Positions 40,058 to 63,451 of a stretch of DNA of 64,000 nucleotides are shown here, piece by piece. The notes under the pieces are model-generated. The model made no database searches. It saw nothing but the letters and a program-made list of their open reading frames with translations, and was not told the origin of the DNA. Source of the stretch: Geothrix limicola (lineage in GTDB: Bacteria; Acidobacteriota; Holophagae; Holophagales; Holophagaceae); the NCBI RefSeq assembly GCF_030268085.1, contig NZ_BSDE01000001.1, positions 868,001 to 932,000 of the forward strand, given 5' to 3'. The stretch's first letter is position 1. Each line of letters opens with the position of its first letter. A program made the translations under genes and the position numbers.

Positions 40058-41170
40058 ATGTCCTTATCAGACCGTCTCGATCTCGAACCCCGGCCCTTGA
40101 TCCGGGCCACCCTGGTCACCGCCGTCCTGGGCGGCGTGGTGGCCCTGGGCAGCCGCGGAGGGCGCTGGCTGGATCCGGCCCTTCTCGGCTACCTGCTGGC
40201 GACCCTCTTCGCGTGCTTCGGCATCGCCTACCGCTACTTCACCTGGATCGAGCGGCCCGCCACGCGCATGTATTTCCGCCACACCATGGGCACCCTGCTC
40301 TCGCCCAAGGCCTTCAAGGCCCTGCCCCGCATGGCCGTGCTGGCGCTGGACCAGATGTTCCTGCAGCGCTTCATCGAGAAGCGCTCGCTTCGCCGCTGGG
40401 GCGCCCACGCGCTGATCGCCTGGGGCTGCATGCTCGGGTTCGCGGTGACCATCCCGCTGGTCTTCGGCTGGGTGCGCTTCACCAGCGAAGGTCTGGACGC
40501 CACCCGCTATCAGGCCTGGCTCTTCGGCTTCCCGGCGGGTTCCTTCCCACTCGACAGCTTCATCGCCTTCTGCAGCTTCCACGTGCTGGATCTCGCCGCC
40601 GTCATGGTCATCGCCGGCTGCGTGCTCAGCCTTATCCGCCGCAAGCAGGATGAGGGCGACACCGCCACGCAGCGCTTCGACCTGGACCTGCTGCCGCTGG
40701 TGCTGCTCATCGCCGTCAGCATGACGGGCCTGATGCTGACGGCTTCGGAGAAGTGGCTGCAGGGCCGCAACTTCGAAACCCTCTCCTTCATGCACGAACT
40801 CACCGTGATCCTCATGCTTCTGGGCCTGCCCTTCGGCAAACTCTTCCACGTCATCCAGCGCCCCGCCCAGGTGGGCGTCAGCCTTTACAAGGCTGACGGA
40901 GAAGCCGAGGGACGCCTCGCCTGCAAGGGCTGCGGCAGCCCCTTCATCCGCGCCAACCAGCGCCGTGACCTCGGCGCACTGTGGAAAGAACTCGACCTGG
41001 ATGGCGCGCGGCACGGCAAGGAGATCCACCACCTGGATCTCTGCCCGAAGTGCAAGCGGCGACTCGTCGCCAAAGCCCAGAGCGAGCGGCTTCAGGGGGC
41101 CTTCGATCCCTTCGCTACCATCCCCGTGCACGCCGAGCCCATTCCCGATCTCACCAGCTTGAAGTCCTGA
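40058..41170 (+). CDS. Cytochrome-b-like membrane subunit with C-terminal zinc ribbon
   Basis: The 370-residue protein has about six hydrophobic segments (18-33, 43-61, 115-138, 175-198, 208-230, 245-265). It carries histidines suited to haem b ligation: FHVLDL in one helix and the pair in [24 protein letters not shown], 18 residues apart. This resembles the NarI/DsrM type of quinone-linked cytochrome b. The soluble C-terminus has CKGCG and CPKCK, a zinc-ribbon-like pair of CxxC motifs unusual for such a subunit. It is the first gene of a cluster with a molybdopterin enzyme, so it is likely its membrane anchor and electron connection. Confidence 0.62.
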
Positions 41171-41177
41171 GGTACCC

Positions 41178-43439
41178 ATGAGCGTTCTTCCTCTTTCCCA
41201 GGATCAGCTCCGCGCCCAGTTCGGCCCCCATCTGAACCTGGCCCCCCCGGGGGGCTGGCTGGCCGATCCCACGCCGGACAAGATCGTCGAGACCCACTGC
41301 TGCTTCTGCGGCCAACAGTGCGGCATCAAGCTGAAGGTAAAGGACAACAAGGTGATCGGCTTCGATCCCTGGGAGGAGTTCCCCTTCAACCAGGGCAAGC
41401 TCTGTCCCAAGGGTGTGAAGCGCTACCTGCAGGGCAACCACCCGGATCGCCTCACCAAGGCCATGAAACGTACGGCCAATGGCTTCGAGCCCATGGACTG
41501 GAACGAGGCCATGGACCGCACGGTGGCCGAGATCCAGCGCATCCAGACCACCCACGGCAAGGACGCCTTCGCCGTGCTGTCCGGCGTGTCCCTGACCAAC
41601 GAGAAGAGCTACCTCGCGGGCAAGTTCGCGCGCCTGGGTCTGCAGACCAAGAACCTCGACTACAACGGCCGCCTCTGCATGGTGAGCGCCGGCGCGGGCA
41701 ACAAGAAGGCGTTCGGGGTCGATCGTGCCGCCAACTCCTGGGCCGACATTGAGCTGGCCGACGTGATCTGGGTGGCCGGATCCAATGTGGCCGAGTGCTC
41801 GCCCATCACCACCGACTACATCTGGCGCGCCCGGGACCGCGGCGCCCTGCTCATCGTCGTGGACCCGCGGATCACGCCCTTGGCCCGCACGGCGGACCTG
41901 GTGCTGCCCCTCAAGCCCGGCACCGACTCGGCGCTGACCAACGGCATCCTGCACCTGCTGCACAAGTGGAACCTCATCGACTGGGACTTCGTGAAGGCGC
42001 ACACCCACGGCTTCGAAGAAACCCTGGAGGCCGTGAAGGACTGCACGCCCCAGTGGACCAGCCAGATCACGGGCCTGCCCGTGGAGGCCATCGAAAAGGC
42101 CGCGCGCATCTGGGGCGAGGCCCGGACCAGCTTCCTGCTCCACGCCCGCGGCATCGAACACCAGAGCAAGGGTGTGGACAATGTGCTGGGCTGCATCAAC
42201 ATGGTGCTGGCCACGGGGCGCATCGGAAGGCCCGGCTGCGGCTACGGCACCATCACGGGCCAGGGCAACGGCCAGGGCGGCCGCGAGCACGGTCACAAGT
42301 GCGACCAGCTGCCGGGCAACCGCGACATCAGCAACCCCGAGCACCGGAAGTACATCTGCTCGGTCTGGGGCTGCACGGATGAAGAGCTTCCGGGCATGGG
42401 CCAGAGCGCCCAGGAGATCATGAATGCCATCCATGCGGGCGAGATCAAGGGCCTGCTGCTGCTCTGCTTCAACCCCCTGGTGTCGCTGCCCAACACCGAA
42501 TTCACCCGGGAGGCGCTCAGCAAGCTAGAGTTCTTCGTCTGCCTGGATTTCTTCCTCAGCGAAAGCGCCCAGCACGCCGACATCGTGTTCCCCTCGGCCT
42601 TGCACGAGGAGGACGAAGGCACGTCCACGAGTGCCGAAGGCCGCGTCATCCGCATCCGCAAGGCCGTGGAATGCCCCGGCGACGCCCGCCCCGATTGGCA
42701 GATCATGGTCGAGCTGGCGAAGCGCCTGGGCCGCGGCAAATACTTCGACCACTTCACCAGTTCCGAATCCATCTTCAACGAGCTGCGTATCGCCTCCAAG
42801 GGCGGCACGGCGGACTACGCGGGTATCACCTACGAGAAGATCGAAAAGAACATGGGCATCTTCTGGCCCTGCCCCACGGAGGATCATCCCGGAACGCCGC
42901 GGCTCTTCGAAGGCGGGAAGTTCTTCCACCCGGACGGCAAGGCCAAGTTCAATCCGACGCCCTACCGCCCGCCCATGGAGGTGGTCGATGACGAATACCC
43001 CATCTGGCTCACGACGGGCCGCGTGGTCTTCCATTACCTGAGCGGCACCCAGACGCGGCGCATCGGCTTCCTCGTCGAACAGTGCCCGCATCCCTACCTG
43101 GAAATCCATCCGCGGCTCGCCGAGCGGTACGGACTGCAGGAGGGCGACGCCGTGGAGATCAGCTCACGGCGCGGCTCCATGGTGCTGCCCGCCAAGGTGG
43201 TGAAGACCATCCGCCCCGACACCGTGTTCATCCCCTACCACTGGGCCGGGGCCCTGTCGGCCAACCGGCTCACGGCCAGGCACCTGGATCCCGTGTCGAA
43301 GATTCCCGAGTTCAAGGTGAGCGCCGTGCGGCTCAAGAAGACCACCAAGGACCAGTTCTCCCCCGAGTTGGCCGAACTGCAGCGCATGGCCTTCGAGGCC
43401 CGCAGCAACCAGACCGACATGCCCGAGCAGGTGTTCTGA
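41178..43439 (+). CDS. Molybdopterin oxidoreductase (Nas/Nap/FDH class)
   Basis: The 753-residue catalytic subunit has an N-terminal [4Fe-4S] site of form C-x2-C-x3-C-x27-C (Cys41, Cys44, Cys48, Cys76), then the molybdopterin domains and a C-terminal dinucleotide-binding domain (EVSAV... tail). The Mo ligand is probably Cys167 in [11 protein letters not shown], as in NapA/NasA rather than the Asp of Nar[22 protein letters not shown] is the usual pterin-binding region of NasC/NarB-like nitrate reductases and formate dehydrogenases. The substrate could be nitrate or another oxyanion or small molecule. It lacks a Tat signal, so it is cytoplasmic unless carried by a partner. Confidence 0.85.
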
Positions 43440-44020
43440 TGGTGCCCCAGGACTACGGCTTCTTTATCGATCCCCAGCGCTGCATCGGCTGTCGCTCCTG
43501 CGTGGGCGCCTGCGCCGAATGCGGCACCCACCGCGGCCGGTCCATGATCCACCTGGATGAGATGGATCGTTTCAACAGCACCCAGACGGTGCCCACCGTG
43601 TGCATGCACTGCGAGGATCCCATCTGCGCCCAGGTCTGCCCCTCGGATGCCATCAAGCGCAGCGAGGACGGCGTCGTGCACGCGGCCCAGAAACCCCGCT
43701 GCATCGGCTGCCAGAACTGCGAGCTGAGCTGTCCCTTCGGTGTGCCGCTCGTGTTCTCGGGCCTCGAGCAGATGCTCAAGTGCGACCTCTGCTACGACCG
43801 CACCTCCGTGGGCCATAAGCCCATGTGCGCCACGGTCTGCCCCAGCCAGGCCCTGCTCTTCGTGCGCAAGGACGAAGTGGCGGGCATGCGCAAGAACAAG
43901 CCCCTGCGCGAATTCCTCATCGGCACCGTGAGGGTGAAGACCAAGAACGCCATCATGGTGCCCGACCCCGAAACGCCCCTGCACCTGGATGCTGCGCTGC
44001 TGATTGACGGAGGCTTCTGA
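43439..44020 (+). CDS. Four-cluster ferredoxin-type electron transfer subunit
   Basis: The 193-residue protein carries the NrfC/DmsB-like set of cysteines: CIGCRSCVGAC, CMHCEDPICAQVCP, CIGCQNCELSCP and CDLCYDR...CATVCP, enough for up to four [4Fe-4S] clusters. It is the expected electron conduit between the molybdopterin subunit and the membrane. Start and stop overlap both neighbours (TGATG), so the subunits are translationally coupled. Confidence 0.9.
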   Translation: MVPQDYGFFIDPQRCIGCRSCVGACAECGTHRGRSMIHLDEMDRFNSTQTVPTVCMHCEDPICAQVCPSDAIKRSEDGVVHAAQKPRCIGCQNCELSCPFGVPLVFSGLEQMLKCDLCYDRTSVGHKPMCATVCPSQALLFVRKDEVAGMRKNKPLREFLIGTVRVKTKNAIMVPDPETPLHLDAALLIDGGF

Positions 44021-44595
44021 TGACCTGGTGGCGTCGCGCCTTCCCCCTTGAACTCGCCGAGGAAGGCCATTTCTCCCGTCGCGAGTTCGCCCGTTTCCTG
44101 GCCCTGGTCAGCGCCGGCTTCACCGCCGGCATTGGTTTCCTGTGGATGCGGAAGAAGCCTCTCGAAGGTGCCTCCGACCCCGAGTCCGGACTCACGGGAC
44201 AGCCCGTCGCCCTGGGCATGGCCTCGGATCTGAAGCCCGGCGAAAGCCGCCTCTTCAAGTTCAGGGATGCCCACGACGCCTGCATCCTGCTTCGGACTTC
44301 CACAGGTGAGCTGAAGGCCTACCGGCAGACCTGCACGCACCTGGGCTGCGCCGTGCGTTTCTCAGGTGGTCGCCTGGAATGCCCCTGCCACCTGGGCTTC
44401 TTCGAAACCGACCGCGGCTTCCCCGTGCAGGGCCCGCCCAGCCGTCCCCTGTCCGCCATCGCCCTGGAAACCCGCCCCGACGGCAGCCTCTGGGCCGTGG
44501 GTGAGCTTCCCAAGCCCACCCTCGAAAACCTCGACCGCCGGGCCGACTGCCCCAAGGAACAACAACTTCAAGAACGGCAGGAGGTGAAGGCATGA
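44020..44595 (+). CDS. Rieske [2Fe-2S] protein with Tat-type anchor
   Basis: A 191-residue protein with an N-terminal FSRREFARFL (Tat-like twin arginine) and a single TM anchor (about 27-43). Then comes a Rieske domain with CTHLGC (Cys105, His107, Cys110) and CPCH (Cys121, Cys123, His124). The extra cysteine pair matches the high-potential, disulfide-containing Rieske proteins of bc1 and related complexes. It would sit on the outer face of the membrane, giving a route for electrons to or from cytochromes. Its place beside a molybdopterin enzyme and not a cytochrome bc1 is unusual. Confidence 0.88.
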   Translation: MTWWRRAFPLELAEEGHFSRREFARFLALVSAGFTAGIGFLWMRKKPLEGASDPESGLTGQPVALGMASDLKPGESRLFKFRDAHDACILLRTSTGELKAYRQTCTHLGCAVRFSGGRLECPCHLGFFETDRGFPVQGPPSRPLSAIALETRPDGSLWAVGELPKPTLENLDRRADCPKEQQLQERQEVKA

Positions 44596-44804
44596 CTCCC
44601 CGCGTCCGCATCTCCCCCGCAGCCCTCGGCGTCATCCTCGTGCTGCTGGTGATCCAGGTCTACCTCTTCGAAACGGTGCTGGGCGCCGTGCTCGATGGTC
44701 AGCGCAAGGTCCTGCCAGGAGCTTTCGGCGTGTCCCTGGCCCTCACGGCCATCTGCCTCTTCCTCGCCTTCCGCAGCACAGTGGAGCACGGGCCGAAGGA
44801 CTGA
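44592..44804 (+). CDS. Small membrane protein of the molybdo-Rieske cluster
   Basis: A 70-residue protein with two predicted TM helices (about 10-30 and 42-60). It overlaps the Rieske gene by four bases and ends the cluster. I do not recognise a named family; a small stabilising subunit is plausible. Confidence 0.65.
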   Translation: MTPRVRISPAALGVILVLLVIQVYLFETVLGAVLDGQRKVLPGAFGVSLALTAICLFLAFRSTVEHGPKD

Positions 44805-44973: not shown

Positions 44974-46116
44974 TTAGTCAGCCTGCGGCAGTTCCTGGCT
45001 GGGGTTCACGTCCTTCATGAACACGGGCCAGCAGGCCAGGTGGCCAGCGCCCAGTTGGAGGAGGATGCCGCCCAGCTCGGGCAAGCCGAAGGCCGGCGCG
45101 GCTCCGCGCAGGACCGGCGGCATGATCTGAAGGTAGAGATCCAGCCAGCGCCCCACCAACAGGATGGCGCAGGTCGCCAGCAGCACCGTTTCGCTCGTCT
45201 TCGCCTTCCGCTGGAGCAACAGGACGAAGGGCAGGCCGAAATTCAGCAGCAGGTTCAGGTAGAAGAGGGGCACCCAGGGCGCCTGCAGCAGCAGGCGCAG
45301 GGGGCCCGTTTCCTCGGGGAGGTTCGCGTACCAGATGAGCAGGAACTGGCTGAGGAAGATGTAGGCCCAGAAGCTGCTGAAGGCGAAGAGGAGCTTGCCC
45401 AGGTCATGGTTCTGGGCCTTGGATACGGCGGGAATGAGCCCCACGCGGCGCAGCACGATGGCGCTGATGGTGACGATGGCGATGCCCTGGAGGAACATGC
45501 CGGAAAACCCGTAGATCGCGAAGATGGTACTCGACCAGATGGGCTCGAGGGACATCAGCCAATCGAAGTTCGCCAAGCAGAAGGTGAGGGCGAAGATCAG
45601 GATGAAGGCCGCCGCCCCCCTGCCCTGTCGCGCCAGCCGTCGCCCCGCCCAGATCCAGGCGGCAAAGATCAGGATCACCCGACCGAAGAAGAATGGCGTG
45701 TTCAGCCAAGCGAGCCGCCCGTGCAGCACCGGATCCAGGTCCGCGCCCGGCCTCGCCCAGGGATAGAGCACCGCGGCACCGTAGGCCAGCAACAGCATGA
45801 GGACACCGGCCACGGGCAGCAGGGCCGGCATCGCGCGGTGGGCCTTGAGGATGGGATCGCTCCATCGCGCCCCTGTGATGGACTGGATGGCGAGGAGGAA
45901 GAGCCCGCCGAGCCCCACGCAGGCCAGGTTGAAGGCGGTCAGCAGCAGGTTCGCCCAGCCACGTTCCGCCTGGAGCACCAGGCCGAGCGCGAGCAGCAGG
46001 CCGCCTAGGATCACGAAGGTCCAGGCGCCGCCCTGCAGCCGGTCGCCGATGTCAGCCAGGGTGGGAATGCCGGTCTTGGTCAGATCCCGGACAGGAACCG
46101 TGGAAGATGGGCTCAT
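44974..46116 (-). CDS. actF: Alternative complex III subunit ActF
   Basis: The 380-residue protein has about ten TM helices and the ActF/NrfD-like segments FDWLMSLEPIWSSTIFAIYGFSGMF and FWAYIFLSQFLLIWYANLPEETG. ActF is a quinol-site membrane subunit of alternative complex III, the bacterial replacement for cytochrome bc1. It is the last gene of the act operon and overlaps actDE by four bases. Confidence 0.88.
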   Translation of the reverse strand: MSPSSTVPVRDLTKTGIPTLADIGDRLQGGAWTFVILGGLLLALGLVLQAERGWANLLLTAFNLACVGLGGLFLLAIQSITGARWSDPILKAHRAMPALLPVAGVLMLLLAYGAAVLYPWARPGADLDPVLHGRLAWLNTPFFFGRVILIFAAWIWAGRRLARQGRGAAAFILIFALTFCLANFDWLMSLEPIWSSTIFAIYGFSGMFLQGIAIVTISAIVLRRVGLIPAVSKAQNHDLGKLLFAFSSFWAYIFLSQFLLIWYANLPEETGPLRLLLQAPWVPLFYLNLLLNFGLPFVLLLQRKAKTSETVLLATCAILLVGRWLDLYLQIMPPVLRGAAPAFGLPELGGILLQLGAGHLACWPVFMKDVNPSQELPQAD

Positions 46117-47295
46117 GGCTGGACTCCTCCAGGAAGGGGCGTCACCGCAGGGGCGGAAGTTGGCCTGGCGGCGGCCTTCTGCAGCTCCCGGATGTAGAGC
46201 ACCACCAACCAGCGGTCCTCGCGGCTGAGCAGATCGCCATACCCCTTCATTTTCATCGGCCCGCCGTAGGTCGCGATGTGGAAGAGGCGCCCGTCGGGCA
46301 TGTCCCGGACCAGCGGCGACACGAGCACCGTCGGCGCAAAGGCGCCGCGGTTGACGACCACGCTTCCGTTGTTGTCCCCTTCGCGGCCGTGGCAGGTGGC
46401 GCAGACGCGCTCGAACATGGCCTTCCCCCGGTTGAAGCGGGCCTGGGTGGGCTGGTAGGGGTTGATGAGTTCGCGTCCCGCCCGCTCGGCTTCGGTTTTG
46501 CCTGGCGCGAATGCCAGGGGGGCGGCCCCACTCCTCGAGAGGGTTCCAGGCGGCGGCGCCTGCAGCACCAGACCGCCTCGCAGCACGGCGCTGGCATCAA
46601 AGGCCTGGGCCGATACCGGAGCCCCCATGCCCCCGTCCCAGGCAAGGTTGCGCTTCTGGAAGTCGCGGTTGAACAGCGGAACCGAGGCCACCAGGAGGAA
46701 GGCCGGCAGGCAGGCCAGGATGAGGGCCCCTGCCCCGGCGGGCCGATCCCAGAAAGAGGCGCCTTTCACCAGGCGGTCCTCCACCAGCAGGGACATTTCC
46801 ACGGCTCCGAGCGCATCCAAATCGGCGGCCACCGCAGAGAACTGCGTGTCCATGGCCAGTTCGGCCGCAAGGATGAAGCGATCGTCGTTGGCCCCCGGAT
46901 GCAGGTCGGACACATGCAGGCGGGGCCACATGCGCGCCACCGCGAAGAAGCTGGCCACCACGCCCAGGCCCGCCAGGAGCACCGTCAGTTCGAAGGCCAC
47001 GGGGATGAAGGCCGGCAGCGCGATGAGGGGCTTGCCGCCCATGCGCAATGGGTAGTCGACGGCGGAACTCCAGATCTGGAAACCAAAGGCGAGGGTGAGG
47101 CCCAGGGCCGCAAAAGCCAGACAAGCACGGGGAAGACGCGAGGGACGCACTCCCAGGGCCTCATCCATGCCGTGCACGGGAAAGGGCGAGTAGGTGTCCA
47201 GCACGGTGTGCCCCGCGGCCCGCAGATGCTTGACCGCAAAGAGCAGGCGATCCGGATCGGCGAAGGAGGCGCGGAAGCGGCTGCGGCGGAGGTGC

Positions 47296-47309
<14 letters not shown>
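46113..47309 (-). CDS. Fused ActD-ActE subunit of alternative complex III
   Basis: The 398-residue protein joins two subunits that are normally separate. Residues 1-185 form an ActD (DUF3341) domain with two TM segments (about 62-80 and 95-125). Another TM at 193-213 leads to a class I cytochrome c domain with CATCH (Cys303, Cys306, His307) and a downstream axial Met in the [11 protein letters not shown] segment, equivalent to ActE. The cytochrome would face the periplasm. It starts inside the end of actC (14-bp overlap). Confidence 0.85.
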
Positions 47310-48682
<1,373 letters not shown>

Positions 48683-48693
<11 letters not shown>

Positions 48694-51595
48694 GGTGACC
48701 TCTCTGATTGGGTTCGCCCTCGACATTGCGTATCTTTGTCAGGTAGCTCACGGCCGGTCCGATGCCCAGGTCGCCCAGCACCACGAAGCGCTTGGGATCG
48801 CGCAGGACTTGGCTGATGCGGCTGTCAGGATCCTGCACATCGCCGAAGACGATGGCCTGCGCGGGGCAGCTCTGCATGCAGGCCGGCAGCGCCTCACCGT
48901 CTTTCAACTCGCGCCCTTCATTCTTGGCCGTGATCTTGGCGGCCATGAGGCGCTGGACGCAGAAGGAGCACTTCTCCATGACCCCGCGGCTGCGCACCGT
49001 GACATCAGGGTTCAGACCCAGCCGTTCCAGTTCACTGGCATGGGGATACTCCCACCAGTTGAAGCGGCGCACCTTGTAGGGGCAGTTGTTGGCGCAGTAG
49101 CGGGTGCCCACGCAGCGGTTGTAGACCTGCTGGTTGAGGCCCTCCTCGCTGTGCACGGTGGCCAGCACGGGGCACACGTTCTCGCAGGGGGCCTGGTCGC
49201 ACTGCTGGCACATCATGGGCTGGTGCACAACGCCGGGTTCGGCCTCTGAACCCGTGTAGTAGCGGTCGATGCGCAGCCAGTGCATTTCCCGCTTGCGGGC
49301 CACCTCATCGCGGCCGACCACGGGGATGTTGTTCTCCATCTGGCAGCCCACCACACAGCCGGAACAGCCCGTGCAGGCGCTCAGGTCGATGACCATGGCC
49401 CAGCGGTGGGCGCCGTGTGGATGCTCGCCATAGACCGATGGCCCCACGTGCTCGTGGGGCCGCGCGGAGGCCGGATCGCGCAGGTAGGGGGCCAGGGCCA
49501 TTTCCCGCACCAGCTCCCGGCCTTCGAGGCTGTGGTGGTCCTGCGTGCAGGCCAGTTCCACGCGTCCCGAACCGCGTCGCACCTGGAGGGGCGCCGCCTC
49601 GGCCGCCAGGAATCCCGCCGTGAAGGACCGCCATGGGTAGGCGTTCTTCCCCACGTGAAGTCCGGCCTTGCCCCCCGCGGTGCGGCCGTATCCCAGCGCC
49701 ACCGCGACGGTGCGGTCGTCCAGGCCCGGCTGAACGAGGACCGGCAGTTCCAGCTCCAGGGCATGCCCTTCCGGGCGCAGCCTCAGCAGATCGCCCTGTT
49801 CCAGGCCCAGCCTGGCCGCGGCGGCGGGCGAGACCTGCGCGTAGTTGTCCCAGGTGGCCTTGGTGATGGGGTCGGGCAGCTCCTGGAGGAAGGGGATGTG
49901 GGCGTGGCGGCCATCTCCCAGGCCCACCTTGGCGTAGAGCAGCAGTTCGTAACCACCCTGGTGGGCGGGCCTCGAGGCGCCCTCCACGCGGCCTGCCCGG
50001 TAGCTGGGCGCGTTTCCGGTTTCTATCTGCGCGACGCCCTTCTGCAGAGCCCCGTTCCAGAATGCATCGAAATCAGCGACCCCCTTCTGACGCAGAAACA
50101 CCGCGGTCTTCCAATGCTCGCGCAGGGCCGCGAGGGCCTGGGTGGGGTGGCCCGACCAGGCACCGAGGCTTTCAACGGCGTCGCGAGTGTTGAAGAGCGG
50201 GTTGATCAGGGGCTGCGCCAGGGCGAATGTTCCCGCCACCGCCTCCGAATCGCGCCAAGTCTCCAGCCAATGATGGTCAGGGGCGAGGTGGGTACAGCGG
50301 GCGGCGCTTTCGTCCTCCGTGAGGGCCATGGAGATGCGCAACGGCACCTTTTCGAAGGCGGCCGCGAAGGCGGGTGTCTGGTCGTAGAGGGGATTGGTCC
50401 CCAGGAGGATCAAAGCCCCGATCTTGCCTGCGGCCATGTCTCGGATCAGCGATTCAAGATCCCGGTCATCGCCCTGCTTCTGCAGGCTGGGATGGGCCAG
50501 ATCCACCGTGACGCCCTCATGGCCGAGGGCATGGTTGATCCGTGCGCAGAGTTCCTGTGCCCGAGGGTCATTGAGGCCGCAAAGGAGCAGGCCGTGACCG
50601 CGGTGGCGCAGGAGGGCATGGGCGACGGCCTCCGCCTTGGCCTTCAGGGCGGCAGGCAGGACGCCGACCGGCCCATCAAGATCGGCGTGATGGGCCAGGT
50701 GTTCCAGGAAGATGATCGCTTCGGAGGGCGCCAGGCGAACCCGCTCATCCGCATTGCTGCCCGTGAGCGACATCCCGCTTTCCACCTGGATGTGCTTCGA
50801 CATGGCCTTGGGCCGGTCGGGACCGCGGCGTTCCGCGTAGGCACGGGTGAAGCCCACGGGGTCCAGCCAGGTGCCGAGGAAATCCGCCTCGACACCCACG
50901 ATGAGGTCCGCCTCCTCCAGCCGGTAGTGCGGGACCAGCCGCTGGCCGTGGGTCCGCTCGTAGGCGGCGGCCAGGGCGGCGCAACCGAGGGCGTCGGCCT
51001 GGACGAGGCGGCCATCCTTGAAGGTGCCTAGGAAGGCCAGTACGGCCGCCTTCAGCGTAGGACTGGTGAGGGTTCCGGACAGCACACGGACGGCGCCGCC
51101 GGAGGTCCGCAGCGCGGCGAAGCGATCCGCGAGATCGGCATCCAGCTTCGTCCAGTCCACATCCCCGCCTTCGATGCGCGGGCCGCGCAGACGGGACTCA
51201 TCGTAGAGGCCCCGGGTCTGCACCTGGCCCATGGCGCACAGGCCGCCGCGGTTCAGAGGATGATCCGGATTCCCCTCCAGCTTCACGGGGCGCCCGTCGC
51301 GGCTCTTGGCCAGCACGCCGCACCCGGCGCTGCAGCCTCCGCACACGGTGGCGTACCACTGCGCGACGCCGGGTGTCAGGCCCTCCCGGGCGTTGAGGTA
51401 GGGCATGGCCCTTTCGACCACCTTGCTCTTGCAGCCGAGGGCCAGGCCTGCAGCAAAACTGAGGCCTGAAAAACGGAAGAAGTCCCGGCGGCTGATCTGC
51501 CGGACGCTCTCTCCCACGGGCAGTTCATCCTCGAATTCGGCCTTCCTGGCGCGCACCGTTCCGCGTCGCTCACCGAGGCTTTTCCAGGTCTTCAT
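48683..51595 (-). CDS. actB: Alternative complex III iron-sulfur/molybdopterin-like subunit ActB
   Basis: A 970-residue protein starting with a Tat motif [10 protein letters not shown] (35-44) and lipobox-like LGC, then a molybdopterin-oxidoreductase-like domain (about 80-690) and a ferredoxin domain with [37 protein letters not shown] and CSFCVQRL motifs. ActB in known complexes keeps the fold but has no Mo cofactor, and relays electrons through Fe-S clusters to cytochrome ActE/ActA. The N-terminal [10 protein letters not shown] may bind the first cluster. Confidence 0.93.
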
Positions 51596-51604
51596 GGGGT
51601 CTCC

Positions 51605-52189
51605 TCAGTGATGGCAGGCGGCGCAATCAGTCGGGGCCTGGGCGGGCTTGCCGGCCAACAGCTGTTTCTGGTTTTCGAGGCGATGGCAGGCCAGGCATTC
51701 ACCCATGGCCAGGGCCATGAACTGCTCTACCCGCTCCTCGCCCTGGATCTCGCCATGGCAGGATTGGCAGGCCACCCCGGATCGGACGTGGCGGCTGTGC
51801 GGGAAGGTGACATGGGCGGGCAGGCGGTGGATGCGAACCCATTGGATCCCGCGCCCGCTGACGTAGGCTTCACGGAGCTTCTGGATGTCGGGACTGGGAT
51901 TCGACTTCCCGGCGGGCGTGCCGGCCTTGTTGAGCACGGACTCGTGGCATTTCATGCACGTGCTGAGCGGGGGGATGCCCGCATGGCGGCTCGTTTCCGC
52001 AGCCGAGTGGCAGAATTGGCAATCGATCTTCAGCTCGCCTGCGTGCAGGGCGTGGGAATAGGCGATGGGCTGGATGGGCTTGTAGCCGCTCTGATCCCCC
52101 AGCAGGCGGGTGTCCAGGCTCAAGGCGAAGATCATGAGCGAGGCGCCGAAGGCCACACAGCCCGTGATGGCCACCGTCCTCAGTCTCAT
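51605..52189 (-). CDS. actA: Pentaheme cytochrome c subunit ActA
   Basis: A 194-residue protein with an N-terminal anchor (about 5-26) and five CxxCH motifs: CQFCH, CMKCH, CQSCH, CLACH and CAACH. This is the pentaheme ActA of alternative complex III, on the periplasmic face. It starts inside the stop codon of narI (ATGA overlap), so the nitrate reductase and act genes read as one unit. Confidence 0.92.
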   Translation of the reverse strand: MRLRTVAITGCVAFGASLMIFALSLDTRLLGDQSGYKPIQPIAYSHALHAGELKIDCQFCHSAAETSRHAGIPPLSTCMKCHESVLNKAGTPAGKSNPSPDIQKLREAYVSGRGIQWVRIHRLPAHVTFPHSRHVRSGVACQSCHGEIQGEERVEQFMALAMGECLACHRLENQKQLLAGKPAQAPTDCAACHH

Positions 52190-52860
52190 CGCAGTCCCTT
52201 TCGGTTCCAGATCACCACCTGGGGCCGCCGCCAGTAGTAGAAGACCGGAACCACCAGGAAGTGGACCAGGCGCGTGAAGGGCAGCAGGAGGATCACGGTG
52301 AACCCGCTGAGGAAGTGGACCTTCACCATCCAGGGCAGCGGCACGATGAATTCGGGCCGGGGCGCCAGCTTGACCAGGCTCCACAGGTAGGGCGCGGCAT
52401 TGGTGGAGAACCAGGAGCTGCCCCAGCGGAAGCGGATGGCCACGTCGATGCCGCTGGCCACCTGGAAGAGCAGTACGGCCAGGAGCACGAGGTCTAGGGT
52501 GCTCGTCACCACCTTCACGCGGCGGTCCGCGAACCTTCGGATGATCAGGGCCACCACGCCCACCAGGGCCAGCAGGGCCATGGACAGGCCCGTGATTTCC
52601 AGCAGGTAGAGCCTCAGGGGGCGGGCGTTCCAGGCGATGATCGCCTCGGGCAGGAAGAAGGCGAAGAGATGCCCGGAGAGCACCCAGAGGATGCCCCAGT
52701 GCCATAGGCCCGAGCCCCAGAAGAGGTTCTCCGACTCCAGGAACTGGCTCGACAGGCTCGAATAGCTGAAGGGCCGCCAGGTGAAGCGGAGGATGCTCAC
52801 CACGATGGCCAGCGCGAGGGCCACATAGGGGAATCCCACGAAGAGGAAATTATTCAGCAC
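52186..52860 (-). CDS. narI: Respiratory nitrate reductase gamma subunit (cytochrome b)
   Basis: The 224-residue protein begins MLNNFLFVGFPYVALALAIV and has five TM helices with the NarI haem b histidines (LWHWGILWVLSGHLFAF; VKVHFLSGFTVILLLPFTRLVHF). NarI takes electrons from quinol for NarH and NarG. A GTG at 52860 is used; it overlaps narJ by 11 bases. The end overlaps actA by four bases. Confidence 0.94.
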   Translation of the reverse strand: MLNNFLFVGFPYVALALAIVVSILRFTWRPFSYSSLSSQFLESENLFWGSGLWHWGILWVLSGHLFAFFLPEAIIAWNARPLRLYLLEITGLSMALLALVGVVALIIRRFADRRVKVVTSTLDLVLLAVLLFQVASGIDVAIRFRWGSSWFSTNAAPYLWSLVKLAPRPEFIVPLPWMVKVHFLSGFTVILLLPFTRLVHFLVVPVFYYWRRPQVVIWNRKGLR

Positions 52861-53476
52861 AGGCCGCCTCCGCAGGGGACGACTGGTCCGGGCTTTGCCC
52901 GGGCCGGGCGTGGGGGGGTCCGGGGGGGACGCAGAGGGCCGCATGGTCCGGGCGGTCCCCCTCGGAGGGCATTCGATCCACGGTGAAAATCAGGAAGAGC
53001 GCATGGAGCACATGGACGTAGGGGCTGTCTTTAAGGGCGGGCAGGACCTTCTCCACCGTGGGCAGGATGCAATCGTCCACAAGATCCATGGCGTCCTGGC
53101 GTTCCAGCCTCATGCCCAGGTCCAGCAAGTTCGGGAGGTGGTCCGGCAGGTTCTTGCCTTCTTCGATGCCGTGCTCGTGGAGGTGATGGCGCATCATGGC
53201 CATGAACTGGCCCCGCTGGTACGTCTCGCCGAACAAGTGCCAGCCCGCATCCAGACTGCAATCAGGATTGAGATCGAAACTGCGGGTGAACAGTTCCTGC
53301 AGTTCCCGCAGGTCGAGATCCTTGACCGTGAGGGCGAAGGCCTCCAGGTGTTCCTGGCAGGGATGTCCGGTGGCCATGGCCGCGTCGGCGAGGGAGGCGG
53401 CCAGTTCTGAGGTGCATTCTCCGGGATAGCGGAGCAGCTGGCTGATGGGGGGAATAAGGTGGACAGGTACCTTCAT
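52850..53476 (-). CDS. narJ: Nitrate reductase assembly chaperone
   Basis: A 208-residue soluble helical protein with NarJ features (ISQLLRYPGE, DLRELQELFTRSFDLNPDCSLDAGWHLFGE, YQRGQFMAMM). NarJ holds NarGH until the Mo cofactor is inserted. The ATG is two bases after the narH stop. The last 40 residues are Pro-rich and probably disordered. Confidence 0.9.
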   Translation of the reverse strand: MKVPVHLIPPISQLLRYPGECTSELAASLADAAMATGHPCQEHLEAFALTVKDLDLRELQELFTRSFDLNPDCSLDAGWHLFGETYQRGQFMAMMRHHLHEHGIEEGKNLPDHLPNLLDLGMRLERQDAMDLVDDCILPTVEKVLPALKDSPYVHVLHALFLIFTVDRMPSEGDRPDHAALCVPPGPPHARPGQSPDQSSPAEAACAE

Positions 53477-53478
53477 GA

Positions 53479-54975
53479 TCACATCCCCCTCTGAGGCGCT
53501 TCGCGGAAGCCGAACCCTGAAGCGCCCTTGCGCTCCAACGGATTGGTGAGCACCTCCACCGCCTGCTCGCGATGCGAAGGCGGAATGACGAAGCGCTCCT
53601 CGAAGGTGCAGAGACTGGTGATGCGGTAGATTGCTTCGGCCTGCACGGGATCGCAATCGGCCTCGCGCAGACCTGCCAGAGCCAGCTTCATGTCCACGTC
53701 GCCCACGGTTTGGGCGCGCTTCCATGTGCGAATGGCCAGCATCTTCTTCATGGCGTAGCGCACCGGTGCCTCCTGCCCTGCCCCGAAGAGGTTGGCCAGG
53801 TAGGCCATGGGCAGGCGGGCCTGGTCCAGGGGCGCGAAGATCTCGTCCACGGAGGTGGGATTGAGGGCCACGCCGTTCTCCATGGAGTAGGTGACGGGCC
53901 CGAGGGCCGGCACGTAGAAGAGGCTGGGGAAAGTGCGGTACTCGGGATGGGGCGCCAGGGCCAGGCCCCAGGCCTTCACGAACTGGTAGACCGGGCTCTT
54001 CCGGGCGGCCTGCAGAGTCTGTTCGCTGACGCCGTTCCTGCGGGCCGATTCAATGACAGCCGGATCGTTGGGATCGGCCAGGAGATCGCGGTGAGCCGTC
54101 ACCAGCTCCGCATCGGGCCTGAGGCCGGCGGCCTGGATCTTGTCGGCATCGTAGAGCAGGACGCCCATGTAGCGGATGCGACCCACGCAGGAGTGGAAGC
54201 AGGCGGGGGCCTGGCCCGTTTCCACACGGGGGTAGCAGAGCAGGCACTTCTCGGATTTGCCGGTGCTCCAGTTGTAGAAGACCTTCTTGTAGGGGCAGGC
54301 ACTCACGCAGTAGCGCCAGCCACGGCAGACCTTCTGGTTCACGAGGACGATGCCATCCTCCCCCCGCTTGTAGAGGGCCCCGCTGGGGCAGGCGGCCACA
54401 CAGGCCGGATTCGCGCAGTGGTTGCAGATGCGCGGCAGGTAGAACATCACCAGCGTCTCGATGGAGAGCAGCTGGAGCCGTTGTTCTTCGCTGAGCGCCG
54501 ACAGGTTCACGTCGTTGCGGGCGTAGAGAGTGGAACCGCCCAGATCGTCGTCCCAGTTCGGACCGGCCTCGATGTCGATGTACTCCCCTGTGACCTTGCT
54601 GATAGGGATGGCCGTGGGCTGATCGTCTTGTTCGGGGCCCGTGAAGAGGTCTTCGTAGCGGTAGGTCCAGGGCTCGTAGTACTCGTCCATGGTGGGCATG
54701 GAAGGCTGGTGGAAGATCTTCTGGAGGAACTTGCCCTTGGCCGTGAGGCGCAGCTGGAGCTTGCCGTCCTTCACCACCCAGCCGCCTTTGTATTCCTCCT
54801 GGTTTTCCCACTGGGTGGGATAGCCTGTTCCAGGCTTGGTCTCCACGTTGTTCCACCACATGTAGTCGGCGCCCTTGCGGTCGGTCCACACGTTCTTGCA
54901 GGCGATGGAGCAGGTATGGCAGCCGATGCACTTGTCCAGGTGGAACACCATCGCCACTTGAGAGCGGATATCCAT
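53479..54975 (-). CDS. narH: Nitrate reductase beta subunit (Fe-S)
   Basis: A 498-residue protein with the four NarH cluster motifs: CIGCHTCSIACKNVW (16-30), CNHCANPACVAACPSG, CRGWRYCVSACPYK and CLLCYPR...CFHSCVGR. The Trp in CRGWRYC is the usual sign of a [3Fe-4S] cluster. It carries electrons from NarI haem b to NarG. It lies 10 bases after narG. Confidence 0.96.
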   Translation of the reverse strand: MDIRSQVAMVFHLDKCIGCHTCSIACKNVWTDRKGADYMWWNNVETKPGTGYPTQWENQEEYKGGWVVKDGKLQLRLTAKGKFLQKIFHQPSMPTMDEYYEPWTYRYEDLFTGPEQDDQPTAIPISKVTGEYIDIEAGPNWDDDLGGSTLYARNDVNLSALSEEQRLQLLSIETLVMFYLPRICNHCANPACVAACPSGALYKRGEDGIVLVNQKVCRGWRYCVSACPYKKVFYNWSTGKSEKCLLCYPRVETGQAPACFHSCVGRIRYMGVLLYDADKIQAAGLRPDAELVTAHRDLLADPNDPAVIESARRNGVSEQTLQAARKSPVYQFVKAWGLALAPHPEYRTFPSLFYVPALGPVTYSMENGVALNPTSVDEIFAPLDQARLPMAYLANLFGAGQEAPVRYAMKKMLAIRTWKRAQTVGDVDMKLALAGLREADCDPVQAEAIYRITSLCTFEERFVIPPSHREQAVEVLTNPLERKGASGFGFREAPQRGM

Positions 54976-54985
54976 GTCGGTCCTC

Positions 54986-57900: not shown

Positions 57901-58612
57901 ACTTCGCGTTGTACCAGTCGGCGCTTTCCTGCACGTCCGTCTGCTCGCCCCACATCTCGGGGCTGCTGGGCGGCAGGTCGCAGTACCAGTCGTAGAAGCT
58001 GAGGTTGGTGCCGCCCATGAGCTGGATGAAGCGCGAACCCGCGGCGTAGCTCAGCATGGACATGGCCGGGATCGGACTGAAGCCCGCGATGCGATCGGGA
58101 CCATGGGTCTTGATGGTGTGGATGTTGGCCGCGGCGATGAGTTCGGCCGCCTGCTCCCAGGAAGCGCGGCGGAAGCCTCCCTTGCCCCGGGCGCGCTGGT
58201 AGCGGGCCCGCTTGTCGGGATCATTCTGGATGCTGGCCCAGGCCGCCACGGGGTCCTGGTGCTTGCCCTTGGCCTCTTCCCAGAGATCCATGAGGGCGCC
58301 CCGCAGGTAGGGGAACTTCACCCGCAGCGGGCTGTAAAGGTACCAGCTGAAGCTGATGCCGCGCTGGCAACCTCGGGGTTCGTAGGGCGGTACCTTCTCA
58401 TCCAGCATCGGATAGTCGGTCACCTGCATTTCCCAGGTGACGATGCCTTCCTTCACGTAGATGTTCCAGCCGCAGCTGCCCGTGCAGTTCACGCCGTGGG
58501 TGCTGCGCACGACCTTGTCGTGGGCCCAGCGGTTCCGGTAGAACTCCTCCCAGGAGCGGGTTTCGGGATCGACGATATCGGTGATCCAGTGGCTCTGCTT
58601 GCGCTCGGTCAT
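54986..58612 (-). CDS. narG: Respiratory nitrate reductase alpha subunit
   Basis: The 1208-residue catalytic subunit matches NarG along its length: FS0 cluster site His39-x3-Cys43-x3-Cys47-x33-Cys81, Mo-ligand Asp211 in [20 protein letters not shown], and HxxNNLIYR and [13 protein letters not shown] pterin regions. NarG reduces nitrate to nitrite with bis-MGD. No Tat signal is visible ([18 protein letters not shown]), so the active site faces the cytoplasm as in E. coli. Its expression is probably tied to the Rrf2 regulator and nitrate transporters encoded divergently. Confidence 0.97.
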
Positions 58613-58628
58613 GTGAGTTCCTTCGGGA

Positions 58629-60377: not shown

Positions 60378-61904
60378 ATGTCCGAACGATCCCAAGCCGT
60401 CACCGCCCTGGCCATGAGCACCTTGGCCTTCACGTTCTGTTTCGCCGTCTGGACGCTCAACGGGGTTCTCGTCACCTTCCTGGTGGAGAACGGCCTGTTC
60501 CGGTGGGACACGGCTCAGATCGGCTGGCTCATCGGGATTCCCGTGCTCACGGGTTCCATCATGCGCCTGCCCGTGGGCCTGCTGACGGACCGCTTCGGCG
60601 GCCGGAAGGTCTACACGATCCTCCTGCTCCTTTCCGCCTTGCCCACCTGGCTGCTGGGCAGCGTGCACGACTACCAGGGCTTCCTCCTGGCCTCCCTTGG
60701 CTTCGGTCTCTCCGGCGCGGCCTTCGCGGTGGGCATCGCCTATTCCAGTGTGTGGTTCAGCAAGGCGCGCCAGGGCACGGCCCTGGGCATCTTCGGCGCG
60801 GGCAACGCGGGGTCGGCCATCACCAGCATGGGCGCGCCGCTCCTCTTGAAGAAGCTCACGTCGGGTGGTGCGAACCTGGAGGCCTGGCGCACCCTGCCTC
60901 GGATCTACGCCATGGTCCTGCTGGTCATGGGCGTGTCCTTCTTCCTCCTCACCCACGAAAAGAAGGCCGAGGGCGCCAAGGGCAAGTCCTTCGCACAGAT
61001 GCTCACGCCCCTGCGCAACGTCCGCGTGTGGCGCTTCGGGCTCTACTACTTCCTCGTCTTCGGTTGCTTCGTGGCCCTGGCCCAGTGGCTGATCCCCTAC
61101 TACGTGGGCGTCTACGGCATGAGCCTCGTCATGGCGGGCCTCCTGGCCTCCCTGTTCAGCCTGCCCTCGGGCCTCATCCGCGCCGCGGGCGGCTGGATGT
61201 CGGACCGCTTCGGCGCCCGCACGGTCATGTACTGGACCTTCGGCCTCAGCATCTTCGCCTGTGCGGCTCTGATGGTGCCGCGCATGTCCATCGAAAGTCC
61301 CGGCCCCTCGGTGCTCGCTCAGTTCGGCGGCGTCGTCACTGAAGTCCACCCCGGGCATATCACCGTGGGCGAAACAACCTATCCGCTGCGCACGAAGGCC
61401 GCCGAGCCAGAGCTTCGCAACGAGCAGATGCTCGTGCTGCCCCAGAGTCGCTTCTGGCAGAGCCCCGTGGTGAAGGTCGGCGACCGCGTGAAGAAGAAAC
61501 AACTGCTGGCTTCGGGCACCACCCATGTGTTTTTCCAGGCCAATGTCTGGATCTTCACCTTCCTCGTCTTCCTGGTGGGCATCGTCTGGGGCATCGGAAA
61601 GGCGGCCGTCTACCGCTACATCCCGGACTACTTCCCCGACGAGGTGGGCGTGGTCGGCGGCATCGTCGGCGTCATCGGCGGCCTGGGCGGCTTCGCGGGG
61701 CCCATCCTCTTCGGCTACCTGCTGCGCGCCACGGGGCTGTGGACAACCATGTGGGTGTTCCTCATGGGCCTTTCCGCCGTCTGTCTGATCTGGCTTCATA
61801 CGGTGGTGCGGCGCATCACCCGCGAGCAGAATGAAACCTTCTTCACCCGTTTCGAACACCATGCCCCGGCCATCTCCCCCGATGATGCCGTCGAACCCGC
61901 CTGA
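60378..61904 (+). CDS. NarK-type nitrate/nitrite MFS transporter with loop insertion
   Basis: The 508-residue MFS protein has 12 TM helices and NarK signatures GVAYSSVWFSK-type and GIFGAGNAGSAITSMGAP (137-154). It imports nitrate or exchanges nitrate for nitrite. Between helices 8/9 lies a stretch of about 85 residues (304-389) not usual in E. coli NarK. It includes VVKVGDRVKKKQLLASG (364-380), the pattern of a lipoyl/HlyD-like barrel-sandwich strand, and FFQANVWIF leads back into the membrane. Divergent from nar and just upstream of a second narK-type gene. Confidence 0.85.
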   Translation: MSERSQAVTALAMSTLAFTFCFAVWTLNGVLVTFLVENGLFRWDTAQIGWLIGIPVLTGSIMRLPVGLLTDRFGGRKVYTILLLLSALPTWLLGSVHDYQGFLLASLGFGLSGAAFAVGIAYSSVWFSKARQGTALGIFGAGNAGSAITSMGAPLLLKKLTSGGANLEAWRTLPRIYAMVLLVMGVSFFLLTHEKKAEGAKGKSFAQMLTPLRNVRVWRFGLYYFLVFGCFVALAQWLIPYYVGVYGMSLVMAGLLASLFSLPSGLIRAAGGWMSDRFGARTVMYWTFGLSIFACAALMVPRMSIESPGPSVLAQFGGVVTEVHPGHITVGETTYPLRTKAAEPELRNEQMLVLPQSRFWQSPVVKVGDRVKKKQLLASGTTHVFFQANVWIFTFLVFLVGIVWGIGKAAVYRYIPDYFPDEVGVVGGIVGVIGGLGGFAGPILFGYLLRATGLWTTMWVFLMGLSAVCLIWLHTVVRRITREQNETFFTRFEHHAPAISPDDAVEPA

Positions 61905-61921: not shown

Positions 61922-63451
61922 ATGGCCAAGCTCACCAACTGGAAACCTGAAGATCCCCAGGCCTGGGCTGCCGGCGGCAGCCGCACTGCCTGGCGGAACC
62001 TTTCGATCTCCGTGCCCGCCCTGCTCTCGGCCTTCTGCATCTGGATGTTCTGGAGCGTGCTGACGGTGCGCATGAAGGAGGCAGGCTTCCCCTTCACCGC
62101 CGCCCAGCTCTTCACCCTCATCAGCATCGCGGGGTTGAGCGGCGCCACGCTGCGCATCCCCAGCGCCTTCCTCGTCGGCCTGGCGGGAGGCCGCAACACC
62201 ATCGCCCTCACCACGGCCCTGCTCGTGGCTCCGGCCCTGGGCGCGGGCATCGCCCTGCAGGACAAGGCCACGCCCTTCGCTACCTTCGCGATCCTGGCGG
62301 CCCTCAGCGGCGTCGGCGGCGGCAACTTCGCTTCATCCATGGCCAATATCAACGGGTTCTTTCCCAAGCGCTTGGCGGGCCTCGCGCTGGGCCTGAACGC
62401 GGGCATCGGCAACCTGGGCGTGAGCATCATGCAGGTGCTCGTGCCAGCGGTCATGGGCGCGTCGATGTTCGGCGCCCTGGCCGGCGCACCCCACCTGAAC
62501 GCAGCGGGCCGCCAACTCTGGGTGCAGAACGGCGCCCTCGTCTGGGTGCCTTTCCTTGCCGTGCTGGCGGTGCTGGCCTGGTTCTTCATGGACAACCGCG
62601 AAGGCCAGGACTGCGAGCCCACGGGCCTCGCCCTGCTCAAGATCCTCGGCCTGCACCTCATTGGTTTCGCGGCCACGGCCATGGGCGTGATGCTGCTGCT
62701 CCGTTTCAAGCTCGGTCTGATGCTCCAGATGGGTGTGCTGGTGCTCACGATCCTCGTCTGCCTGGGCCTCATGAAGCTCCTGCCGGGCAAGATCAAGACG
62801 GGCCTGGACGCGCAGTTCGCCATCTTCCCCAAGAAGCACACCTGGATCATGACCGTGCTCTACCTCATGACCTTCGGAAGCTTCATCGGCTTCAGCTCCG
62901 CCCTGCCCCTGCTCATCAAGGTGGTCTTCGGCCGCTTCCCGGTGGGCGTGCTGAACCCGCACAGCCCCAACCCCCTGGCCTACGCCTTCCTCGGGCCCCT
63001 GGTGGGTTCCATCGTGCGGCCCATCGGCGGCCTGCTCTCGGACAAGTTCCGCGGCTCGCGCGTCACCCAGTGGGCCACCGTACTGATGATCCTCGGCGCC
63101 CTGGGTGTGGCGCACTTCGTCAAGCTGGCCCAGGCCGCGCCGGATCCGGCGGTCCACTTCATGCCCTTCCTCGTGCTCTTCCTGCTGCTCTTCGTGGCCT
63201 CGGGCCTGGGCAACGGCTCCACCTTCCAGATGGTGCCCTTCATCTTCGAGCCCAAGCTCGCGGGCCCGGTGTTGGGCTGGACATCGGCCGCGGCGGCCTA
63301 CGGCGCCTTCATCATTCCCGCCATCTTCAAGATCCAGGTGGATGCCGGCAAGGTGGAGGTGGCCCTCTATGGTTTCGCCCTCTTCTATGTGCTCTGCCTC
63401 GTCCTGAACTGGTACTACTACGCCCGGAAGAACGCCGAGGTGAAGTGCTAG
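61922..63451 (+). CDS. NarK-type nitrate/nitrite transporter
   Basis: A 509-residue MFS protein with more than 12 hydrophobic helices and the NNP-family motifs GVGGGNFASSMANINGFFPK and GLALGLNAGIGNLGVS. It differs from the upstream NarK and is probably the proton-coupled or antiporter counterpart, as in organisms with paired narK1/narK2. It follows 17 bases after the first transporter gene, so the two are co-transcribed. Confidence 0.9.
   Translation: MAKLTNWKPEDPQAWAAGGSRTAWRNLSISVPALLSAFCIWMFWSVLTVRMKEAGFPFTAAQLFTLISIAGLSGATLRIPSAFLVGLAGGRNTIALTTALLVAPALGAGIALQDKATPFATFAILAALSGVGGGNFASSMANINGFFPKRLAGLALGLNAGIGNLGVSIMQVLVPAVMGASMFGALAGAPHLNAAGRQLWVQNGALVWVPFLAVLAVLAWFFMDNREGQDCEPTGLALLKILGLHLIGFAATAMGVMLLLRFKLGLMLQMGVLVLTILVCLGLMKLLPGKIKTGLDAQFAIFPKKHTWIMTVLYLMTFGSFIGFSSALPLLIKVVFGRFPVGVLNPHSPNPLAYAFLGPLVGSIVRPIGGLLSDKFRGSRVTQWATVLMILGALGVAHFVKLAQAAPDPAVHFMPFLVLFLLLFVASGLGNGSTFQMVPFIFEPKLAGPVLGWTSAAAAYGAFIIPAIFKIQVDAGKVEVALYGFALFYVLCLVLNWYYYARKNAEVKC

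Follow-up and report, generated by a model that had tools for sequence, protein, structure and literature searches.

A five-gene molybdopterin-Rieske module of Geothrix limicola and other bacteria as a probable membrane-bound nitrate reductase of unusual composition

Introduction

What kind of enzyme is encoded where a cytochrome b-like protein, a molybdopterin oxidoreductase, a ferredoxin, a Rieske protein and a small membrane protein follow one another in a single operon? This question is raised by a locus of Geothrix limicola (Acidobacteriota, Holophagaceae), which lies in a stretch of 64,000 nucleotides (assembly GCF_030268085.1, contig NZ_BSDE01000001.1, positions 868,001 to 932,000) referred to below as the window. 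We name the five products CytB, MopB, Fd, Rieske and DUF6755. Our analysis leads us to regard the five genes as probably encoding a membrane-bound quinol:nitrate oxidoreductase with its active site facing the cytoplasm. By family tests the module is not NarGHI, Nap, NasC or AioAB, and it is most likely a membrane-bound nitrate reductase of unusual composition. An earlier sequence-only reading of this DNA had stated that no characterised complex with this set was known; in agreement with this, no assigned complex and no description of one were found in the literature searched, and no paper naming DUF6755, most subscription journals being outside the coverage of the search.

Results and discussion

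Gene set and its conservation

All five genes are present in the order claimed by the sequence-only reading (Table 1). CytB and MopB are separated by 7 bases and the later junctions overlap as TGATG, TGATG and ATGA, which makes translational coupling plausible and agrees with the coupled operon described earlier; the Fd start used here is a chosen one, in a reading frame that stays open further upstream. A scan for promoters and terminators gave nothing above chance. MopB has 753 amino acids and three Pfam domains that exceed their cut-offs, and is 93% identical to MopB of Geothrix fermentans DSM 14018 (locus L068). Fd matches Fer4_11 with 71 bits (cut-off 26), and 16 of its 17 cysteines fall within four cluster motifs, as expected of the four-cluster ferredoxin that had been proposed. 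The Rieske protein belongs to its family by PF00355 (39.2 bits, cut-off 20.3). The small membrane protein, also correctly recognised before, is a borderline DUF6755 (PF20540) in this genome, with 27.7 bits as a protein against a cut-off of 27 and 26.2 bits in the genome-frame search. For CytB the sole Pfam match at E up to 1 is PF02665 (Nitrate_red_gam), at 19.9 bits and under the cut-off of 22.9.

A scan of genome contigs with MopB yielded 79 loci, to which 20 further Acidobacteriota stretches were added to give 99. CytB, MopB, Fd and Rieske genes lie on one strand in 84 of the 99, in identical order in 82 of these and permuted in two (L027, L063); the 15 incomplete loci include many short contigs. 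Retention of the four large subunits in 84 of 99 loci excludes chance association. The co-occurrence search that had been suggested as a check thus finds all four in seven phyla as judged by record titles, namely Acidobacteriota, Bacteroidota (with Kapaibacterium), Verrucomicrobiota, Thermodesulfobacteriota, Actinomycetota, Deinococcota and Omnitrophota, a count that includes several single contigs of metagenome-assembled genomes. An Armatimonadota-like contig (L026) carries CytB and MopB only.

DUF6755 follows CytB closely. CytB was found in 43 of 297 sampled Acidobacteriota genomes; DUF6755 (E <= 0.01) matched in 40 of them, and the 254 genomes without CytB gave 5 matches, all under the cut-off; each of the 28 genomes with DUF6755 above the cut-off has CytB. 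In the 20 genomes with coordinates compared, 4.3-4.8 kb separate the CytB start from the DUF6755 match; the two are on different contigs in genome G075. The modABC genes had been noted next to the module in the window. This adjacency is local and modABC was rejected as part of the system, ModC-like matches occurring within flanks of up to 8 kb in 2 of 79 loci (L005, 43%; L021, 28%).

Linked and fused transporters

A transporter is encoded within 2 kb of the module in 75 of the 84 complete loci, belonging to NarK in 52, to TDT/SLAC1 in 11 and to HPP in 12. Upstream, transporters were found close by in 29 of 62 cases versus none of 62 at a distance of 4-6 kb; the corresponding downstream counts are 18 and 1 of 48. 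NarK-type matches (E <= 1e-40) occur in 26 of the 43 module-bearing Acidobacteriota genomes and in 29 of the 254 others.

In 17 of the 79 loci NarK is fused in frame to CytB. Six more fusions, confirmed after detection among 26 non-Holophagaceae CytB matches of the 297-genome sample, bring the number to 23 loci from Terriglobia/Bryobacterales and other Acidobacteriota (L049, L055, L062, L091-L093, L095, L109 and others). One of them (L091, genome G149) lies within a single-contig genome of 7.5 Mb; L094, which has the fusion, no MopB match within 15 kb and a decayed appearance, is counted among fusions only. In four further loci of the 79, all from Verrucomicrobia by title (L043, L044, L077, L079), it is DUF6755 that is fused to the N-terminus of NarK. 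Family searches confirmed the NarK part in L049, L062 and L043, with matches under the TIGR00886 cut-off, and the DUF6755 part in L043. An apparent triple fusion of NarK, CytB and MopB in L048 was discarded because the reading frame crosses an undetermined stretch (X) between CytB and MopB; the NarK-CytB part precedes this stretch.

A TDT/SLAC1-family anion channel takes the usual place of NarK in L045 (5783-6832), L099, L100, L101, L104 and L108, which suggests that it transports nitrate or nitrite. In loci without a near NarK the place may be taken by HPP (PF04982), as in L006 (11665-12282), other Holophagaceae, L028, L037 and L110; a passage of PMC4137279 citing Maeda 2014 places a candidate plastid nitrite transporter in this family. 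CytB was also found on four Deinococcus plasmids. Both of the plasmids that were inspected have the five genes in the module order and then a transporter gene, annotated as "nitrate/nitrite transporter" in one case and as "MFS transporter" in the other. CytB itself is labelled "MFS transporter" on all four plasmids (L111, L112: 11836-12948), a label perhaps transferred from NarK fusions.

Catalytic subunit and probable substrate

The MopB active site reads NGRLCM in all 15 module rows of the alignment, compared with NSRLCM in Nas and NPRLCM in NapA, and also aligns as Cys-Met with NapA 2jio. The assignment to Cys-ligated enzymes of the Nas/Nap class made in the sequence-only reading is therefore upheld. 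The best-scoring family is the NasC model NF047855, with 832.8 bits and under the equivalog cut-off of 1100. Two NapA models gave 286 of 904 and 274 of 930 bits, and the NarG model TIGR01580 (cut-off 1084 bits) matched in weak pieces, the best with 24.4 bits. In a tree, the module rows fall on one side of a branch with support 78/98 that is kept by all 200 bootstrap trees (96/100 in an earlier tree with a different NapA row and the unassigned L123 row), and a branch holding NasA-type Nas, Nap and formate dehydrogenases has support 97/99. NasC was the nearest outsider to the module in one tree (89/83), a placement that the revised tree did not resolve. From the Cys-Met site and the linked transporters, we take the substrate to be most likely nitrate, reduced in the cytoplasm.

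Genome content is consistent with this assignment in Apibacter. NarG scores above its cut-off in 7 of 25 module-bearing genomes and NapA in one; Geothrix rubra, Geothrix paludis and Algoriphagus aquaeductus, which are in culture, have the module and neither of the two above cut-off. Apibacter adventoris likewise has neither above cut-off and carries the module with two NarK genes. An acquisition of nitrate-respiration genes is reported for Apibacter (PMC9862579, where it cites Zhang 2022); given the gene content of A. adventoris, this report probably concerns the module genes, and as far as that passage goes a partial prior recognition of the module is likely. For species of Cecembia, Litoribacter and Algoriphagus, a literature search on nitrate phenotypes gave nothing usable.

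The closeness to NasC could also mean that the enzyme is an assimilatory nitrate reductase fed by quinol, which makes nitrite for biosynthesis and not for respiration. NasC being the top-scoring family and, in one tree, the nearest outsider favors this possibility, as do molybdenum cofactor genes nearby in several loci. We nevertheless consider it unlikely, if worth keeping in mind. Seven of the 25 module-bearing genomes hold a separate long MopB (frames of 1176-1215 amino acids) with a sub-cut-off NapA match, and the two such stretches placed in the tree group with Nas enzymes beside nirB/nirD. Genes for RIC-type NO repair are found near 13 of 79 modules and 7 of the 20 further Acidobacteriota modules, and a membrane complex of NarI type would suit respiration.

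Cytochrome b subunit and Rieske protein

The AlphaFold model of CytB (pLDDT 86) resembles NarI. Comparison with eight NarI entries (Escherichia coli NarI) gave VIA Z scores of 10.3-10.9 over 171-182 residues, next to 11.6 for EtfD and 6.9 for the following row, values to be read knowing that helical models may reach Z 13 through a common helix arrangement. A Foldseek search of the PDB with CytB gave nothing at E <= 0.001 and ranked EtfD first, at E 0.12, so the predicted NarI-like fold is drawn from the VIA comparison. Models of QmoC/TmcC match at E ~3e-6, under their cut-off, and no Pfam family of bc1/b6f type matches at E up to 1. His117, His246 and His264 are present in 70 of 70 CytB sequences. 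From the topology, the inner haem would be held by residues 117 and 264 and the outer haem by 175 and 246. His246 and His264 are 18 residues apart, and two haem ligands in the last helix of Escherichia coli NarI are separated by 18 residues as well. Lysine and arginine number 11 in residues 65-117, 17 after 267 and 2 in 137-174 of the window CytB, a distribution that would place the first two regions inside and the third outside. The C-terminal zinc ribbon described for CytB is complete in about 47 of 70 sequences; in 22 others three of its four cysteines are replaced, and it is thus a feature of part of the family.

The Rieske protein has an RRx[FL] motif in 70 of 70 sequences, from which we place its head outside the membrane, and the ligand motif CxHxxC...CxCH in 69 of 70, the remaining one being cut by a contig end. 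In a 19-row alignment the cluster motif is CTHLxC...CPCHxGxF, with both disulfide cysteines present and with Gly and Phe at two positions that matter for the potential. Ser and Tyr at these places raise the potential of bc1 Rieske proteins, and their replacement by Gly and Phe points to a moderate potential. Hence the Tat-type anchor claimed by the sequence-only reading stands, while the high potential claimed with it is doubtful.

These features are consistent with the following path. Quinol would be oxidised on the periplasmic side, at the face shared by cytochrome b and Rieske protein, and electrons would traverse the membrane by way of two haems b in CytB, move along the four Fd clusters and the iron-sulfur cluster of MopB, and arrive at its Cys-ligated molybdenum, where nitrate would be reduced to nitrite. 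Nitrate would enter and nitrite probably leave through the linked or fused NarK, SLAC1/TDT or HPP protein. The Rieske head outside would most likely be a periplasmic relay or branch on CytB, in place of NarC of Thermus, or it may take part in quinol oxidation, and DUF6755 could be a small structural subunit between the complex and the transporter.

A general role of the Rieske protein in feeding periplasmic NrfA or NirK was tried and rejected. In the 25 module-bearing genomes NrfA is strong in 15 and above cut-off in 16, one of these at 25.6 bits, and NirK is above cut-off in 4; eight genomes have clearly neither, two of them with a sub-cut-off NirK-like match.

The same counts bear on a bc1-like arrangement, in which a Rieske/CytB site would bifurcate the electrons of quinol, one to nitrate inside and the other through the Rieske protein to a periplasmic acceptor. 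The shared operon of Rieske protein and cytochrome b is in line with this idea, as are a Q-cycle proposed in the part of PMC2483277 consulted for a haloarchaeal nar operon with these two proteins, and Rieske and cytochrome b genes in a Caldithrix nap cluster according to an excerpt of PMC5317091. Yet CytB lies outside the bc1 family by the Pfam search above, the gene set lacks a periplasmic acceptor, and eight of 25 genomes have no clear NrfA and NirK, so that we find bifurcation of this kind rather improbable. We give no better chance to a more speculative energy-converting nitrate respirasome, in which a NarI-type cytochrome b and an AioB-like Rieske protein would form a quinol-bifurcating site with an origin independent of bc1. 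One electron would reach nitrate in the cytoplasm and the other a carrier in the periplasm, and transport and reduction would be physically coupled in the lineages where NarK is fused to CytB.

Sidedness of the complex

A Tat-like pattern was found in the first 45 residues of none of 79 MopB and none of 72 Fd sequences. From the NarI-like model of CytB, its charge pattern and the transporter fusions we place Fd and MopB in the cytoplasm. The sequence-only reading had suggested that electrons reach the periplasmic side, unlike in a cytoplasmic assimilatory enzyme. The external Rieske head agrees with the first part of this suggestion; the NarK links, the lack of a Tat pattern on MopB and Fd and the CytB charges favor reduction of the substrate in the cytoplasm.

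An enzyme resembling periplasmic arsenite oxidase would have MopB and Fd exported by means of the Rieske Tat signal, with electrons moving among CytB, Rieske protein and MopB on the outer face. The Rieske model is indeed nearest to AioB (Z 14.9-15.8), the AioB model TIGR02694 matches it at E 1.1e-8 though with 35 of 96 bits and under cut-off, and AioA likewise has no signal of its own. Rieske ferredoxins, however, reach Z 14.7 and heads of bc/b6f type 11.3-13.9, and as rows within 1 Z are tied, the fold indicates a compact Rieske head and not an arsenite oxidase. Linked and fused NarK, TDT and HPP transporters would make little sense beside a periplasmic enzyme, CytB resembles NarI and is predicted to have its C-terminal domain on the inside, and MopB is NasC-like rather than AioA-like (173 of 359 bits). 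We regard this arrangement as improbable.

A formate dehydrogenase or another reductase (of chlorate, selenate or thiosulfate) is very improbable, since, despite 591 bits with the formate dehydrogenase model TIGR01591 (cut-off 666) and formate dehydrogenases ranking first among PDB chains matched by MopB, the residue after the catalytic Cys is Met in all 15 module rows and His in the three formate dehydrogenase rows, and nitrate/nitrite-type transporters adjoin the module; formate dehydrogenase identity itself is ruled out by the Cys-Met site and this context.

Several observations weigh against the quinol:nitrate oxidoreductase that we prefer. Nitrate as substrate rests on gene context, MopB scoring under cut-off with each of the nitrate reductase models listed, and its shortfall against the NasC cut-off makes another oxyanion possible. 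The transporter evidence has gaps of its own: NarK-type matches are mostly under the TIGR00886 cut-off (52 of 55 genomes), and nine of the 84 complete loci, and the window too, have no NarK, TDT or HPP gene inside 2 kb. Six of the nine are from Holophagaceae, two (L060, L069) have cut flanks and L107 is a true miss; five of the Holophagaceae loci (L007, L009, L011, L012, L068) belong to genomes carrying NarG, the sixth (L005) being outside the NarG test. NarG is moreover commoner in genomes with the module (10 of 43) than in the others (16 of 254; Fisher p 0.001), so that the module is not a simple NarG substitute, and the window genome, with NarG and NapA above cut-off, needs no module for nitrate reduction. 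As to the membrane part, His175 of CytB is found in 62 of 70 sequences. In AioAB the molybdenum subunit has no Tat signal and is exported together with the Rieske protein; with AioB as nearest Rieske fold, signal peptides do not settle sidedness here. Finally, the five-gene set has no cytochrome c or other acceptor for the Rieske protein and eight of 25 genomes are without clear NrfA and NirK, so that gene content offers no general exit for Rieske electrons.

If the proposed function is correct, a widespread kind of nitrate reductase escapes narG surveys; a survey limited to NarG found no match at E <= 1e-200 in 33 of the 43 module-bearing Acidobacteriota genomes. DUF6755 would gain a function to test, and TDT/SLAC1 and HPP proteins are suggested as bacterial nitrate/nitrite transporters. 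A bioenergetic question also arises, namely why a cytoplasmic nitrate reductase would bear a Rieske protein outside.

Other features of the window

Beyond the module, the window contains a separate narCGHJI-like operon and two NarK genes (Table 1). The set at 44974-51595, which follows the nar operon, we take to be alternative complex III-like. With NapA and NrfA likewise present in the window genome, three kinds of nitrate reductase gene set occur together.

Table 1. Features of the window, with coordinates counted from its first nucleotide (NCBIfam cut-off of TIGR00886: 312 bits)
Feature	Coordinates	Strand	Evidence
CytB, predicted NarI-like cytochrome b membrane subunit with C-terminal zinc-ribbon-like domain	40058..41170	+	family search, 30-row alignment, model
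MopB, NasC-like molybdopterin enzyme (catalytic subunit) with N-terminal [4Fe-4S] motif and NGRLCM as active site	41178..43439	+	
Fd, DmsB/NarH-like ferredoxin, 16 Cys in four cluster motifs	43439..44020	+	
Rieske [2Fe-2S] protein, N-terminal twin-arginine membrane anchor	44020..44595	+	
DUF6755 small membrane protein, two hydrophobic segments	44592..44804	+	
narCGHJI-like operon (dihaem cytochrome c, NarG, NarH, NarJ, NarI), continuing into a multihaem cytochrome gene and a further set	44974-59438	-	
NarG of the separate nar operon	54989-58612	-	
Dihaem cytochrome c, two CxxCH, heading the separate nar operon	58629-59438	-	
NarK-family nitrate/nitrite transporter, possible partner about 16 kb from the module, beside narCGHJI	60378..61904	+	TIGR00886 E 1.9e-54, 185 bits (below cut-off)
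Second NarK-family transporter	61922..63451	+	TIGR00886 E 7.7e-87, 292 bits (below cut-off)

Of the 26 Holophagaceae loci, 20 have an Rrf2-type regulator gene directly upstream of CytB (for example L068, 6322-6768); that of the window is at 59799-60284, beside the NarK pair rather than upstream of CytB. Among the molybdenum cofactor genes near the module of L073 there is a TauE/SafE-type permease (PF01925, 13741-14466), with related matches in L025, L035, L036 and L079.

Comparison with known systems

Several known systems share parts of this design. Bacillus-type assimilatory NasC (NF047855) is the same top family, from which the module differs by its membrane gene set and its score below the equivalog cut-off. 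With AioAB the module has in common a Rieske protein accompanying a molybdenum enzyme, and its Rieske model is closest to AioB in fold; MopB and AioA are only distantly alike, and the module has in addition a membrane cytochrome b, Fd, DUF6755 and a transporter.

The sequence-only reading had held that an assigned complex already including a Rieske subunit would speak against novelty. The haloarchaeal nar operon comes loosely near to this: in the portion of PMC2483277 consulted it holds NarB (Rieske) and NarC (cytochrome b), the pair for which the Q-cycle was proposed. Its enzyme is NarG and its cytochrome b is homologous to that of bc1 (PMC8301774, in the part consulted), in contrast to the NasC-like enzyme and NarI-type cytochrome b of the module, so these are not one-to-one homologs. 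The nap cluster of Caldithrix abyssi likewise combines a nitrate reductase with genes for a Rieske protein and a cytochrome b, but the reductase there is NapA with NapGH and NapM, and the cytochrome b is similar to that of bc1 (excerpt of PMC5317091).

The likeness to NarGHI and to NarCGHI of Thermus extends further, with a NarI-like anchor, a multi-cluster ferredoxin, NarK alongside and a molybdenum enzyme that here, too, is probably cytoplasmic. The Thermus nar operon begins with narC, whose product is a periplasmic dihaem cytochrome bound to NarI that is required for enzyme maturation and from which nitrite and NO reductases may receive electrons, according to passages of PMC7694296; an extra periplasmic redox subunit would thus be shared as well. 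The module differs in having a 753-residue NasC-like Cys enzyme instead of NarG, a Rieske protein instead of NarC, and DUF6755. A Pfam search found no NarJ chaperone among its five genes, the NarJ of the window being in the other operon. By this analogy, the module resembles a second, NasC-based solution along the lines of NarCGHI, with the Rieske protein replacing NarC.

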